Shown here: positions 2,748-9,797 of the stretch, piece by piece
Layout: every line of letters begins with the position of its first letter
Position numbering within the stretch: position 1 is the stretch's first letter
Origin: Chloroflexota bacterium
Lineage (GTDB): Bacteria > Chloroflexota > Anaerolineae > Caldilineales > Caldilineaceae
Assembly: GCA_003577005.1 (NCBI GenBank)
Contig: QEUW01000301.1
Span: 1-9,797 of the forward strand
Direction of reading: 5' to 3'
Length of the DNA stretch: 9,797 nucleotides
Notes under the pieces: model-generated
What the model saw: the letters and a program-made list of their open reading frames with translations, nothing else
What the model was told of the DNA's origin: nothing
Database searches by the model: none
Made by a program: the position numbers and the translations under genes

Positions 2748-3161
2748 ATGTTGCCTGTCATCCATTTTAGCACGTTGAGCGAGCTGCTCGACGAGTTCAA
2801 CGGAGAACGCCGCGAGATCGTCCGGGTCTCTCACCATCAGCGGACGGAGACCAAGCCAGGGCGGCCCGCTCCGTACACGGTGCTCACCATCCAGGTCAAT
2901 GTGCGGGCGCTCTACCAGGGCGCTATCCTCTCCTACGTTGCTTTCTCGCAGGAGATCCGGGACGGCATCCTGTATAACCGGGATGAGGCGAGGGCCAAAT
3001 ACGAGGCAGCCTGGGACGCTGCCCAGAAGGTGAAATGGGCGATCTGCGCGGAGATCCGGGCGGCGGGCCACGAACCCAGGCCGGGGATCATCGACCTGGG
3101 CGGCGTGCAGCCGGTGGTTGGGGAACAGTGGCCGTTGAGCGAGGTAGACCATGCTGAATGA
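2748..3161 (+). CDS. Unknown 137-aa protein upstream of the ATPase
   Basis: The start at 2748 follows gagggaggtgcgtag, a strong SD, directly after the previous stop. The 137-aa product has an N-terminal helix (STLSELLDEFNGERREIVRV), a central beta-rich region (VLTIQVNVRALYQGAILSYV) and a C-terminal helix rich in Lys/Ala/Glu/Trp (residues 79-106) before a short tail. It has no signal peptide, membrane segment or Cys motif. Because its last 11 bases overlap the ATPase gene, it is likely cotranslated with the ATPase and may act with it, for example as an accessory replication protein; that is inference. No family recognised. Confidence 0.8.
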   Translation: MLPVIHFSTLSELLDEFNGERREIVRVSHHQRTETKPGRPAPYTVLTIQVNVRALYQGAILSYVAFSQEIRDGILYNRDEARAKYEAAWDAAQKVKWAICAEIRAAGHEPRPGIIDLGGVQPVVGEQWPLSEVDHAE

Positions 3162-4404
3162 CCCGCGAGAGTTGATCGGGCGCAACGGGCACAGCGTCTA
3201 CGAGGTGGAACCGGACGCCGATGTGCAAATGCTGCACCGGGCGGAGATGGCCTTTTCCCTCCTCCTCGTCGGTGACGACCCGGAGCCAGAGTATCCGGTG
3301 GGGAGTCTGGGTCCGTTTGACGACTGCTACCGCGCCCTGCTGGCCGCCTATGACAAAGCGGCAGACGGCGAAGAAACAGCGGCGGTTCGAGCCGTGCTAG
3401 ACCAGTACATGGCGCGGGACCCGCTCTTCGCCGACATGGTCGTCGGGGACCACAGCGCCCTCCACAAGCGCAGTTGGTCGGTCTCCGAACTCTATGCGAC
3501 GGAGTTCCCAGAACCGCGCTACCTGGTGCCTGGCCTGCTGCCGGCAGGGCTGGCGGCGCTCGGCGCCAGGCCGAAGATCGGTAAATCGTGGATGGCGCTG
3601 CAGATGAGCGTGGCCATCGGCATCGGCGGCCCGATCTTCGACCTGCCCACCCAGAAGGGCCGCGTGCTCTACCTGGCGCTGGAGGACAGCCCACGGCGCA
3701 TAAAATCACGCCTGCAGCGGCAGCGGGCGACCGAGCATACTAACGTGCGATTTGAGTTCTCCTGGGCGCCACTGTTGGAGGGGGGCATCGACCAACTGTT
3801 GCGCGCCATCGACCGCCACCGCTATGCGTTGATAGTTGTTGATACATTAGCTCGGATCCTGGGGCACATCGACCACAACAAATCGGTTGAGATGAGTGAT
3901 TGTTTGGGGCTGCTCCAGCAGACAGCGGTACAACGCAACATGACGATCCTGCTCATCGACCACCACCGCAAGGGCAACGGCGGCGACGGCGACGTGATCG
4001 ACGATATCATCGGTACGACGGTCAAGACTGGAACGTTTGACGTGGCCATGGGTCTCTACCGCAACCGGGGCGAAAAGAACGCCACCCTGAAGCTCACCGG
4101 TCGCGACATCGAAGAGCGCGAGCTGGCCATGCGCTTCGACCATGAGACCGGCTGCTGGGAATGCCTGGGCGACGCCGAAGAGATCGTCAGCAGCGAACAC
4201 GAAAAGGCCATCCTGGAAGCTGTCAGCAAGCTGGGGGCGCCCACACACAAAGAGATCGCCGACGTGACGGGGCAAGACCGCAGCAACTGCTTCCGGCGCA
4301 TCCAGGATCTTATCCATAAAGGGCGGCTTCGCCAGATCGACGGGCGTCCAGCACGGTTCATGTTGGCAACAGAAACATTAAAGCCAGATGAGAATTTGTT
4401 GTAG
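3151..4404 (+). CDS. AAA_25/RecA-like ATPase with C-terminal winged helix (RepA-type)
   Basis: This 417-aa protein begins at an ATG with SD gagcgaggtagacc, overlapping the previous gene by 11 bases. Residues 1-110 are a helical N-terminal region of unknown role. Residues 120-330 are a P-loop ATPase: Walker A GARPKIGKSW (138-147, K145, S146), LYLALEDS (173-180, the usual catalytic acidic ED), Walker B ALIVVDTLA (226-234, D231), then LLIDHHRK (267-274) and a GTT turn (288-290). This matches the AAA_25 / RecA-fold family that includes the RepA replicative helicases of broad-host-range plasmids and many phage and ICE ATPases. Residues 346-405 fit a winged helix. It probably unwinds or loads at a replication origin, and the repeat array beginning in its last codons is a likely target. 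Which role (helicase, loader or regulator) is not shown. Confidence 0.9.
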   Translation: MLNDPRELIGRNGHSVYEVEPDADVQMLHRAEMAFSLLLVGDDPEPEYPVGSLGPFDDCYRALLAAYDKAADGEETAAVRAVLDQYMARDPLFADMVVGDHSALHKRSWSVSELYATEFPEPRYLVPGLLPAGLAALGARPKIGKSWMALQMSVAIGIGGPIFDLPTQKGRVLYLALEDSPRRIKSRLQRQRATEHTNVRFEFSWAPLLEGGIDQLLRAIDRHRYALIVVDTLARILGHIDHNKSVEMSDCLGLLQQTAVQRNMTILLIDHHRKGNGGDGDVIDDIIGTTVKTGTFDVAMGLYRNRGEKNATLKLTGRDIEERELAMRFDHETGCWECLGDAEEIVSSEHEKAILEAVSKLGAPTHKEIADVTGQDRSNCFRRIQDLIHKGRLRQIDGRPARFMLATETLKPDENLL

Positions 4405-4611
4405 TTGTTGTAGTTTGTTGTAAAAGGTCGATTACAACAATTTTCGAGGTCTCCACAGGTGAAGAAATGCCCAAAATTGTTGTTTGTTGTAGTTGTTGTA
4501 CCTAAATCACCAAAACGCTTGCTATCCGAAGAAACAGGTCTTTTGGTGCAGACTTTTTACAACAACTACAACAACTACACAAACTACAACAACTACAACA
4601 ACTACAACAAC
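4396..4611. repeat. Iteron-like array of a 9-bp repeat in both orientations
   Basis: The unit TTGTTGTAG occurs forward at 4396, 4405 and 4414 (last imperfect), inverted at 4433, forward at 4477, 4484 and 4493 (the first short), and inverted (CTACAACAA) at 4558, 4566, 4575, 4584, 4593 and 4602, one of them a variant (CTACACAAA). That is 13 units in about 216 bases, with no gene. The first unit supplies the last two Leu codons and the stop of the ATPase gene. Bases 4484-4500 pair perfectly (17 bp) with 4558-4574, and inside that loop 4508-4515 (caccaaaa) pairs with 4541-4548 (ttttggtg). Best reading: an iteron origin or operator for the adjacent ATPase, or a regulatory RNA structure. Units of 9 bp are shorter than classic 17-22-bp iterons. 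Confidence 0.85.
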
Positions 4612-4634
4612 TTTTCAGGGGATTCAAGGAGGAC

Positions 4635-4922
4635 ATGGTGAACACAGAATTACAGCAAGTGACGGCCGATTCGGACATGGTCCGGCGATTGACCGACCAC
4701 CTGATCGCCGCCTACGAACAATTCATCAACGCCGAACCCGGCGACGTGGCCTACATCGATGGCTTAATGGCTGCGCACAATTTCCACTGTGCGGTCATCT
4801 TCCATCTGGAGCGTGATGCTGAGTTTCCTCCAGCGCACGCGCTGGATCTGCGTAGGATCGCAATCGCCACGTTTACGGATCGGATGAAGAGAGAGCCACT
4901 GCCGGAGGTAAGTAATGCCTAA
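4635..4922 (+). CDS. Unknown 95-aa helical protein
   Basis: The start at 4635 has an almost perfect SD (caaggaggac) and sits 24 bases after the last repeat of the array, so it is probably the first gene of a new transcript, possibly one controlled by the array. The 95-aa product is soluble, acidic in the middle (EQFINAEPGDVAYIDGLMAA) and helical; there is a His/Cys cluster (H48, H51, C52) but no complete metal site. I recognise no family. An alternative reading beginning further upstream in the array would give runs of Asn/Tyr or Thr and has no SD. It overlaps the next gene by eight bases, so the two are coupled. Confidence 0.8.
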   Translation: MVNTELQQVTADSDMVRRLTDHLIAAYEQFINAEPGDVAYIDGLMAAHNFHCAVIFHLERDAEFPPAHALDLRRIAIATFTDRMKREPLPEVSNA

Positions 4923-6039: not shown

Positions 6040-6352
6040 TGAGCCTCATTCTCTCTGCGGTCGCAACGGTAATCATCGCCCTGACTGGGTTCGCCGACCA
6101 CAACAGCAACTGGGCCCTGGATGCGGGCGAACAGTTGGCCGGTGGCGCCTACGAGGTCTACTACACGGCGCCGGATGGAGCGGTGGCTATGGTGATGGTC
6201 TCGCTCATTGGTATGCCCTCGAAGTGTTTGAAGGCGAGTATGAGATCATGTCTGGGTGCGGCAGTCTGACCCTCGACACGAATGTGACGGAGTTCTATGT
6301 ACCGGTCATCTGCCGGAGTGTGTTTTTGCCATTAGCGTTCGGGGGTAGGTGA
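6036..6352 (+). pseudogene. Frameshifted secreted or anchored protein gene
   Basis: From ATG 6036 the frame reads through a hydrophobic signal or anchor segment (residues 3-18, LILSAVATVIIALTG) and continues as protein-like sequence until about 6211, then ends at a stop at 6269. From about 6195-6212 the sequence that looks like coding shifts to another frame, where it runs without a stop (YALEVFEGEYEI... ) to TGA 6350-6352. That stop overlaps the ATG of the FtsK-like gene (TGATG), as in coupled genes, which supports the second frame being the true end. The whole would be about 105 aa, with two Cys (in EIMSGCGSL and VPVICRS) after the signal segment. A one-base deletion explains it; no slippery heptamer is visible. 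Two separate overlapping genes is the alternative. Confidence 0.55.
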
Positions 6353-7728
6353 TGGAGATCGAGAAACTGGTGATGGCGGAAATTTCGCTGATCAACCGCA
6401 TGTTAGCGGCGCACCAAGTGCAAGCATTCACCAGCAAGAAGCGCACGATGGTGGTCGATTCCTCCTTCATTGCGTACGGCTTAAAGCTCGCTCCGGGCGA
6501 GACCGTGACAAAGATCGAGCGCATCCAGCGCGAGCTTTCCAACGAGTTGGCCCGGCAACGAGTGCGCCTGCTGGCTGGCTATAACGGTCATGCGGTCGTG
6601 CGACTCCGCGATTACCCGCTCGCCATCGAGGTGCCCCATCCGGCGCCGGTCCCGCTGGATTGGCGGGCGGCCAGCCTGCGCATGGGGCGTTTTGTTGCGC
6701 TAATCGGACGCAGCTATGACTATACTGGGATGCGTGACGAGTACCTCGACCTCGAGCGCCACTATCATACGCTCGTGGCAGCTATGAGCGGCGGCGGCAA
6801 GAGCACCCTCATGCGCATGGCCCTACTCACAGTCACGCGCAACACGAGCCCGAACGATCTGCATGTGATGTTGATCGATCTCAAAAACGATGACCTCGTT
6901 CCGTTCCGCCAGGCGCCTCATGTCGTACACTATGCCGGCAGCATCATGGCTGCTACCAGCGCCATCGACTACGTGCATCAGGTTAAAGAGGAGCGGATCG
7001 AGACCCAGGAAAAGCCATGGCGATTGCTCCTTGTAATTGATGAACTGGCCGAACTTGGGGTCAACCGAGAGGCACTGCGGCAACTGGGAAGCATCCTATC
7101 GACGGGGCGCAGTTTAGGAATCAACGTGTGGGCAGGGACGCAATATCCCACCGCGGCCACTATCGGCAGCGTCGTAAATTCATCCTTTACGACGCGGTTG
7201 GTTGGCATGGTCGATGGCAAGCAGGCGGCTGCGACCGCTACCAAGCGCGCAGGCAGTGGCGCTGAATTGCTCCAGACCCCTGGTGATTTTTTGCGGGTTG
7301 ATGGCGTGGAGTTGCGCCGGATGAAGGCGTACAACATCGCCCTGGATGACACCGAGCGCCTGATCGTGCAGATTGCGCGCCGGTGGCGCAGTGGTTATGA
7401 GCGCCAGCCGTTGCAGGTTGGAAGTGGTTACGAGACTGGTTATGAACCTCCCATAACCGGTTATGTGACCGGTTATGGCGAGCGCACCAGTGGTGACAAC
7501 GAGCGGGCCACCATAACCGGTTATCATAACCACTTCCCAATCCGCGCCGGACGGCCCCTCACGCACATGGAGAGACAGGCCGTGCGCAGGTTGGCTGAAG
7601 CAGGAAAGTTCGAGCATCGAGGCCAATTTAGCCTGAACCGTGCCGTGCTGTTTGTCTATGGCAGCAAAAGTCCTGAGCGCCTGGCGTGGGTGCGCGAGGC
7701 TCTTGAACAAGTCGACGTAGGAGAATAA
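6352..7728 (+). CDS. FtsK/SpoIIIE-type DNA translocase, soluble
   Basis: This 458-aa protein (459 from a GTG at 6349) has an FtsK-like motor. Residues 1-100 resemble the region before the motor (APGETVTKIERIQRELSNEL, 47-66, and IEVP at 92-95). Walker A is SGGGKST (146-152), VMLIDLKN lies at 172-179, Walker B is LLLVIDELAEL (225-235; D230, E231), the GTQ sensor is at 262-264, and a conserved serine-rich segment at 270-283 precedes RLVG. It lacks an N-terminal membrane domain, unlike cell-division FtsK. Such proteins pump double-stranded DNA in conjugation (TraB-like in Streptomyces) or chromosome partition. Residues 347-395 are a Thr-Gly-Tyr repeat and 400-458 a small C-terminal domain. Start chosen because of TGATG overlap and the G-rich SD; overlap implies coupling to the previous gene. 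Confidence 0.92.
   Translation: MEIEKLVMAEISLINRMLAAHQVQAFTSKKRTMVVDSSFIAYGLKLAPGETVTKIERIQRELSNELARQRVRLLAGYNGHAVVRLRDYPLAIEVPHPAPVPLDWRAASLRMGRFVALIGRSYDYTGMRDEYLDLERHYHTLVAAMSGGGKSTLMRMALLTVTRNTSPNDLHVMLIDLKNDDLVPFRQAPHVVHYAGSIMAATSAIDYVHQVKEERIETQEKPWRLLLVIDELAELGVNREALRQLGSILSTGRSLGINVWAGTQYPTAATIGSVVNSSFTTRLVGMVDGKQAAATATKRAGSGAELLQTPGDFLRVDGVELRRMKAYNIALDDTERLIVQIARRWRSGYERQPLQVGSGYETGYEPPITGYVTGYGERTSGDNERATITGYHNHFPIRAGRPLTHMERQAVRRLAEAGKFEHRGQFSLNRAVLFVYGSKSPERLAWVREALEQVDVGE
7393..7531. repeat. GGTTAT repeats with ATAACCGGTTAT palindromes inside the FtsK-like gene
   Basis: GGTTAT (one GGTTAC) occurs at 7393, 7426, 7438, 7459, 7471 and 7519 and its complement ATAACC at 7453, 7513 and 7526: nine half-sites in 139 bases. 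Two pairs form palindromes, CATAACCGGTTATG at 7452-7465 and a 12-base core at 7513-7524. The encoded protein shows (I/V/E)TGY repeats. They may be a DNA binding site inside the gene, a low-complexity linker, or both. Confidence 0.7.
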
Positions 7729-9194: not shown

Positions 9195-9361
9195 TTCACA
9201 AATCGTACAATTGTTCTATTTTTGCATGATTTGGTAGGTATGAGCGATATATACTTGTAAGAGCCATTGGTGACAACGGGTCTTCGCTATGCTCCCCTGG
9301 TGCGGGCCGGGGGAAGCCCACACGCGTACCAGTCGCCGTTTTTGCGAGAGGTTTGGCAGTT
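9195..9361. other. Intergenic AT-rich stretch before the CHAT gene
   Basis: Bases 9195-9262 are distinctly AT-rich, unlike the rest (for example gcgatatatacttg near 9243), and may contain a promoter for the CHAT gene: TATACT-like boxes are visible, but no -35 at the usual distance. Bases 9265-9361 are GC-richer and carry no start codon with an SD before 9362. I see no tRNA or att-site signature here. Confidence 0.3.
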
Positions 9362-9797
9362 GTGTCGAGGTTGAACATTCTCCTGGTAGCCCCAGACCAT
9401 CCCGATCTACCCAACGTGGCGGCTGAAGTGGCCTCCATCCGCCAGAATCATGAGGTTGTTGCGCTGCTGGGACCGGTGCGTGACGCCGATATAGCGCGTG
9501 CGGTCCAGAATGGGCCGTATGACATCATCTGGTTTGCCAGCCACGGCAACGAAAACGGCGTGCTGCTGAGTGATGGGCTGCTCTCCATCGCCGGCGTGGG
9601 CCAGTATGCCCGCCACGCTGCGCTGTGCGTTCTCAACACCTGCTCCAGCGAAAATGTTGCCATCTCCATCATCAGCGGCGGCGAAACCGACATGATCTGC
9701 ACCATTGGCGACTTGGGGGACGACGATGCACAGCGCTTTGGCATCCTTATATCGGGTGAGCTTGCGCATACAAATAACTTCCACGATGCCTATCTGC
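9362..9797 (+). CDS. CHAT-domain caspase-like protease, N-terminal part
   Basis: The gene runs off the right edge; 145 codons are visible. From GTG 9362 (SD-like gagagg about ten bases upstream; TTG 9371 is an alternative) the protein opens NILLVAPDHPDL, then has DIIWFASHG (H61) and, later, CVLNTCSSE (C94). The SHG histidine and the NTC(S) cysteine, each after a hydrophobic strand, are the expected catalytic dyad of CHAT domains (caspase-HetF-associated), which cleave proteins and act as effectors in signalling and defence systems. The domain sits right at the N-terminus. C-terminal domains, probably a sensor, lie beyond the window. It is separated from the mobile-element genes by a terminator and 170 bases, so it may be host DNA or element cargo. 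Confidence 0.85.
   Translation, partial: MSRLNILLVAPDHPDLPNVAAEVASIRQNHEVVALLGPVRDADIARAVQNGPYDIIWFASHGNENGVLLSDGLLSIAGVGQYARHAALCVLNTCSSENVAISIISGGETDMICTIGDLGDDDAQRFGILISGELAHTNNFHDAYL

Follow-up and report, generated by a model that had tools for sequence, protein, structure and literature searches.

What is the role of a dense array of short repeats in two orientations that begins within the last codons of a replication-type ATPase gene and occupies the gap up to the next gene? The question is raised by a locus in a 9,797-bp stretch of DNA (the window) from a Chloroflexota bacterium. Thirteen TTGTTGTAG units, the number claimed in a sequence-only reading, were counted in register (at least 7 of 9 matches) between 4396 and 4610, seven of them exact. 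The exact word TTGTTGTA occurs 11 times in the window, always within the array, compared with a mean of 0.06 and a maximum of 1 in 200 dinucleotide shuffles. The array consists of three forward units (iteron cluster 1, 4396–4423, plus strand; units at 4396, 4405 and 4415), a lone inverted unit (4432–4440, minus strand), three further forward units (cluster 2, 4477–4501, plus strand; 4477, degenerate with 7/9 matches, 4484 and 4493), a 55-bp spacer (4502–4556) and six inverted units at a 9-bp pitch (cluster 3, 4557–4610, minus strand; 4557, 4566, 4575 with 7/9 matches, 4584, 4593 and 4602), which is the order of clusters described before. The first unit indeed ends the ATPase gene, as it coincides with the Leu-Leu-stop of the open reading frame 3151–4404 and includes its stop codon. 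An A+T content of 58% at 4501–4557, compared with 41% for the whole window, is moderate and reveals no clear melting element; the spacer between the opposed clusters is considered a candidate melting site. The first gene 3′ of the array (4635–4922, plus strand) encodes a 95-residue protein that matches neither Pfam nor PHROG at the limits applied.

The array had also been described as a 17-bp stem enclosing an 8-bp stem. Both inverted pairs are present in the window (perfect 17-bp pair, 4484–4500 with 4558–4574; 8-bp pair, 4508–4515 with 4541–4548), and the single-strand fold of the array is far stabler than those of shuffled sequences (z −8.3). Self-pairing is expected since the units occur in both orientations, and the inner 8-bp stem is not seen in the related contig L002, as judged from the alignment and the fold of its array. 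Conservation of a nested structure is therefore not established, and the nested stem-loop is disfavoured as a functional unit, the outer stem following from the opposed units. An RNA-family reading found no Rfam match at the gathering score, and a tRNA/att reading was rejected as no tRNA lies within the window.

The ATPase gene (3151–4404, plus strand) codes for a RepA/DnaB-like (AAA_25) protein of 417 residues, whose RecA-fold core exceeds the curated AAA_25 domain score. RSF1010 RepA is its clear best profile match among solved structures and also its top structure match, there tied with DnaB-type helicases; a Pfam profile search revealed no D5_N, DUF5906 or Pox_D5 matches. The AF2 model of the C-terminus shows helices at 342–361, 366–373 and 377–389 and strands at 393–396 and 402–405, with block pLDDT values of 90–97 for residues 341–400. 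These features suggest a winged helix (residues 342–405, codons 4174–4365, plus strand), onto which the Pfam profiles HTH_24 and HTH_IclR match below threshold. Based on the model and these matches, the product of the array-adjacent gene is classed as a RecA-fold helicase of the RSF1010 RepA/DnaB type that ends in a winged helix; the array starts 30 nt past the winged-helix codons. Used alone in Foldseek/VIA, the winged helix retrieved general winged-helix matches with Zalpha domains on top of those listed. The solved structure 1ka8 of the last 100 residues of P4 alpha, which we take to be a winged helix, is not among the 50 matches listed, which excludes nothing.

The genetic setting was deduced from the closest relatives. 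The IMG/VR contig L002 is collinear with the window in blastn at 81–87% nucleotide identity over about half of the window length (nine longer pieces, ca. 5,000 of the 9,797 bases); the HNH gene, the FtsK-like gene and the first part of the array of the window lie outside these pieces. L002 (38 kb) carries genes for terminase, portal, protease, major capsid, tape measure and tail proteins and two integrases, and contig L004 (52% identical) carries terminase, head and integrase genes. Because of these virion and integrase genes, the two contigs closest to the window are regarded, by gene content, as temperate phages and not as plasmids. A Chloroflexota host is likely since the three organism-named entries among the 120 helicase homologues listed come from Chloroflexota lineages (Caldilineaceae, Anaerolineae and Chloroflexota). 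L002 has an array at the same place with a different word, TTGTTGCAC/TTGTTGCAG (TTGTTGCAC/G), and that of L004 uses ACTACCATA.

Elsewhere in the window, nested inverted repeats at 17–99 (32-nt arms, 88% complementary, 17 nt apart) lie close to the position which, in L002, comes after an integrase gene, and the start of a CHAT-domain (caspase-like) protein (9353–9796, E 1.7e-05) is truncated at the edge of the window. A further repeat cluster in two orientations, with the unit GGTTATG, is found at 7393–7531 within the FtsK-like coding region (6352–7728). It has seven exact copies in 140 bp, eight in the window against 0.70 expected, and nine with one mismatch. By analogy to clt, the recognition array of Streptomyces TraB, it may be the recognition array of the FtsK-like translocase.

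Whether such arrays accompany homologous ATPase genes, as the sequence-only reading had suggested to check, was analysed with relatives collected by four helicase alignments. Of 398 records, 278 matched; filtering at 40% shared 24-mers left 189 non-redundant ones, of which 185 offered sufficient sequence. Those 160 with at least 100 bits were defined as relatives and the 25 below as weak-hit controls, which are mostly chromosomal DnaB/RadA-like proteins as far as match size and place tell, without single annotation. The relatives comprise 148 viral-contig loci, 11 loci from bacterial genomes and the window, and are not fully independent. The loci listed by a pattern scan with TTGTTGYANTTGTTGYA, mostly unrelated contigs, made up only one part of the records scanned, among which L050 emerged as a weak-hit control. 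Repeats were first scored with 8-mers allowing one mismatch, but this score gave too much noise in GC-rich DNA (53/160 stood out) and was abandoned. It was replaced by an exact rule demanding one 7-mer at least four times within 480 bp, on both strands and with at least one same-strand pair 8–10 bp apart; this rule was therefore set after arrays had been seen, and the controls were subjected to the same rule.

A two-orientation array of about 9-bp pitch is situated directly 3′ of the helicase gene in 87 of the 160 non-redundant relatives, and a second, stop-anchored look increased the calls to 91 (83/148 viral-contig loci, 7/11 bacterial genomes and the window). The corresponding calls in controls amount to 1/142 upstream stretches, 21/2,320 other stretches (0.9%) and 1/25 weak hits. 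Binned by distance (480 bp), 85 of 156 loci have a call where the profile match ends; every other bin has six calls or fewer (6/160), the farthest bins containing few loci. When intergenic windows were considered, 44/90 were called at the helicase end versus 10/367 elsewhere. At least one array is present in 52 of 84 clusters at 50% identity. Counted independently of the array rule, same-strand repeats are most often spaced by 9 bp, with secondary maxima at 18 and 27 bp, and 9-bp spacing accounts for 1.46 runs per region at the helicase 3′ end versus 0.12 elsewhere. In a second set from annotated collections, composed of 11 (H1–H5, H8–H13) of 15 plasmid and phage matches with H6, H7, H14 and H15 left out, the array was called in seven and four were negative. 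One of the called arrays belongs to pATHE01, a natural 8.3-kb plasmid of Caldicellulosiruptor bescii. Its TTCACTC units (six forward, one inverted, one forward, three inverted) reside at L401:1738–1910, within the gene of a Prim-Pol + AAA_25 + winged-helix protein, the sole replication-domain protein among four scanned of seven annotated.

The arrays are also confined in position, 84 of the 91 starting between −60 and +150 nt relative to where the profile match ends. This end is wrong in a few loci (L007, L014, perhaps others) where only an early profile piece was recorded. In 21 of the 91 called loci, L007 and L014 with their early match piece included, the reading frame extends more than 150 nt beyond the recorded match end; 14 of these 21 arrays start within −60 to +150 nt of the match end and 17 start before the stop codon. 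The array thus tends to follow the end of the winged helix and not the stop codon. The A+T fraction of the gap is 0.53 versus 0.43 per locus and is higher in 69 of 84 loci. Compared to shuffles that do not preserve runs of units, the orientation strings are more dyad-symmetric (0.657 versus 0.514; largest of 1,000 shuffles, 0.583), and 24 are perfectly so versus 11 in shuffles (at most 19). The locus L014 (8984–9206) offers a strong second case, a two-way GCGCATCA array after the helicase with a near-unbroken 9-bp run at its end. The repeat of L006 (9100–9420) at the array place is one-way and encodes PVA repeats in the helicase tail; it is either a converted array or due to chance, and its call is probably false.

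No array was called in 69 of the 160 relatives even at the second look, 49 of them with the profile end matched; some of the 69 may have weak arrays and some none. The words of the units mostly differ among relatives, and over all 91 arrays unit similarity is uncorrelated with winged-helix similarity (Mantel r 0.02, p 0.32). Sharing of unit words rises with winged-helix identity only above ca. 50%, which common descent would produce equally well. A GC-skew switch at the array, also suggested for checking, was not found: the window exhibits only a dip, and no turn is visible at the arrays of relatives (right exceeding left in 18 of 41 loci).

Origins of related layout exist in satellite phages and chromosomal islands. 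The GenBank record of P4 annotates a crr (‘cis required region for replication’) whose end is separated from the alpha stop by 45 bp. Each of its two 120-bp halves carries five 8-bp ‘ori type 1 repeats’, ten in all, which occur in both orientations and include one pair per half at a 9-bp distance; a second site, the annotated origin, is ca. 4.5 kb away from crr. The array caller marks crr and 1/17 other P4 stretches. For the PICI comparison, performed with EcCICFT073 DNA, it marks the origin and 0/87 other stretches of that E. coli sequence. The GTCTACC units after pri-rep of EcCICFT073 follow the string ++-+++--+-- with steps of 9, 47, 21, 11, 9, 32, 11, 21, 47 and 9 bp, three of the ten steps being 9 bp. 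Passages of PMC6092414 report that rep and ori of EcCICFT073 maintain a plasmid, that the PICI origin is positioned immediately 3′ of rep and built from an A+T-rich stretch flanked by two iteron sets, and that this organisation is common to no other known replicon. The window array equals this type in its place directly 3′ of an initiator-helicase gene, with the first unit over the stop codon, and in its multiple short iterons forming two oppositely oriented sets. In repeat layout and place the window array thus resembles known origins. In contrast, the motors deviate: P4 alpha comprises a Toprim primase and D5_N/DUF5906/Pox_D5 and the EcCICFT073 Rep likewise D5_N/DUF5906/Pox_D5, presumably an SF3 motor in both, whereas that of the window is of the AAA_25/RecA fold. 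The likeness is therefore one of layout. A winged-helix nature of the C-terminal domain of P4 alpha is implied in passages of PMC4234260.

Other replicons share single aspects. RSF1010 RepA is loaded, according to passages of PMC8965321, at an oriV first melted by the separate protein RepC; the window helicase differs from it by the fused winged helix and by the array at its own gene. For the Sulfolobus plasmid pRN1, passages of PMC4234260 describe a required segment just 3′ of orf904, which encodes a replication protein with a C-terminal winged helix, and within this segment a stem-loop with a 21-nt stem and a 58-nt loop and no iterons. Its dimensions recall the 17-bp arms of the window, which are 57 nt apart, but orf904 is an SF3 helicase. 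In SCCmec, the C-terminal domain of Cch2 recognises short direct repeats located close behind its gene; binding needs three 5-nt direct repeats and was unaffected by deletion of the inverted repeats there (passages of PMC7581432). This putative origin is likewise just 3′ of a helicase gene, albeit of another family than that of the window. Classical iteron origins of the RK2, F and R6K type carry iterons of ca. 17–22 bp in one orientation beside a Rep with two winged helices. The difference from this type noted in the sequence-only reading is borne out by the 9-bp units in two orientations and the combination of AAA_25 with one modelled winged helix.

On these grounds we consider it very probable that a temperate-phage (or phage-derived) element replicates from this array, which its own helicase would bind through the winged helix. 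The array most likely represents the replication start because the same layout with other words sits behind many distant helicase relatives. Of the earlier proposal of an origin or an autoregulatory operator, the first part is thus favoured by the resemblance to P4 crr and the E. coli PICI origin, and the second has lost ground since the arrays sit 3′ of the gene and occur in only 1/142 upstream stretches. An operator, on which the winged helix or another regulator would control the downstream genes or the helicase gene itself, is accordingly unlikely as the sole role, even though the array occupies the gap ahead of the gene at 4635 and a winged helix is available; 17 of the 21 arrays of the long-frame loci start before the stop codon. 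Neither a promoter (scan of 4200–4800) nor a terminator was detected (chance expectation 0.3 and 0.9), and the absence of a promoter-like site says little because merely 0.3 are expected by chance. Origin iterons often double as operators, and the array may additionally act as such. Still less probable is that the array serves as a centromere or transfer site, with a partition protein or the FtsK-like translocase of the window as its ligand. Many such sites consist of repeat arrays, and a ParB-like gene is present in L002 and an FtsK-like gene in the window; however, the array accompanies AAA_25 helicase genes across diverse loci, L002 has the array and no nucleotide-level match to the FtsK-like gene of the window, although it may carry a distant copy, and the FtsK-like gene of the window has its own separate cluster (7393–7531). 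That the repeats are without function, as slippage-prone simple repeats or a low-complexity coding tail, is hardly credible despite the TTG/TTG/TAG-like triplets composing the unit and the one-way coding repeat of L006, as the use of both orientations, the opposed clusters, the place and the 9-bp pitch reappear while the words mostly change, other stretches are called at the low rate given above and the preference for the helicase end persists in intergenic windows.

For replication initiation at the array we propose the following scenario. Each 9-bp unit would serve as an iteron for the helicase whose gene lies just upstream and which would contact it with its C-terminal winged helix, so that helicase protomers might be arranged side by side on neighbouring units of the opposed clusters. 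The opposed clusters would thereby place two RecA-fold hexamer assemblies face to face. The A+T-richer spacer between them might then melt, the hexamers would load themselves by closing around the single strands, and the helicases would start the forks, replication beginning at the array.

Iterons beside Rep genes are textbook knowledge, and the layout is already known from P4 and PICI origins. The open-access literature searched yielded no report in which a two-way iteron array is placed 3′ of AAA_25/RepA-like helicases. As far as seen in that literature, the new aspect is the pairing of a P4/PICI-like layout with winged-helix RecA/DnaB-type RepA-like helicases in viral contigs, plasmids and bacterial genomes. 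The statement in passages of PMC6092414 that the PICI origin organisation is unshared may thus need widening. Beyond the single locus, we lean, if only slightly, towards a large and as yet undescribed class of initiators in phages and plasmids. In these, a RepA-like helicase of the RecA/DnaB type would have a winged helix of its own and load by itself onto a two-way iteron array of 9-bp pitch situated behind the helicase gene, needing neither a separate origin-binding protein nor a loader. In that case two unrelated motors would use the P4/PICI origin grammar, and the unit word could vary between elements as an identity code. Loading of DnaB/RepA-type helicases normally depends on other proteins; the helicases described here would be self-loading members of this class if they read their own origin. 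The layout rule, a 9-bp two-way array just 3′ of the winged helix, predicts the origin together with its cognate initiator in many phages and plasmids, and the paired winged helices and target words would provide a natural series for studying DNA recognition and replicon incompatibility.
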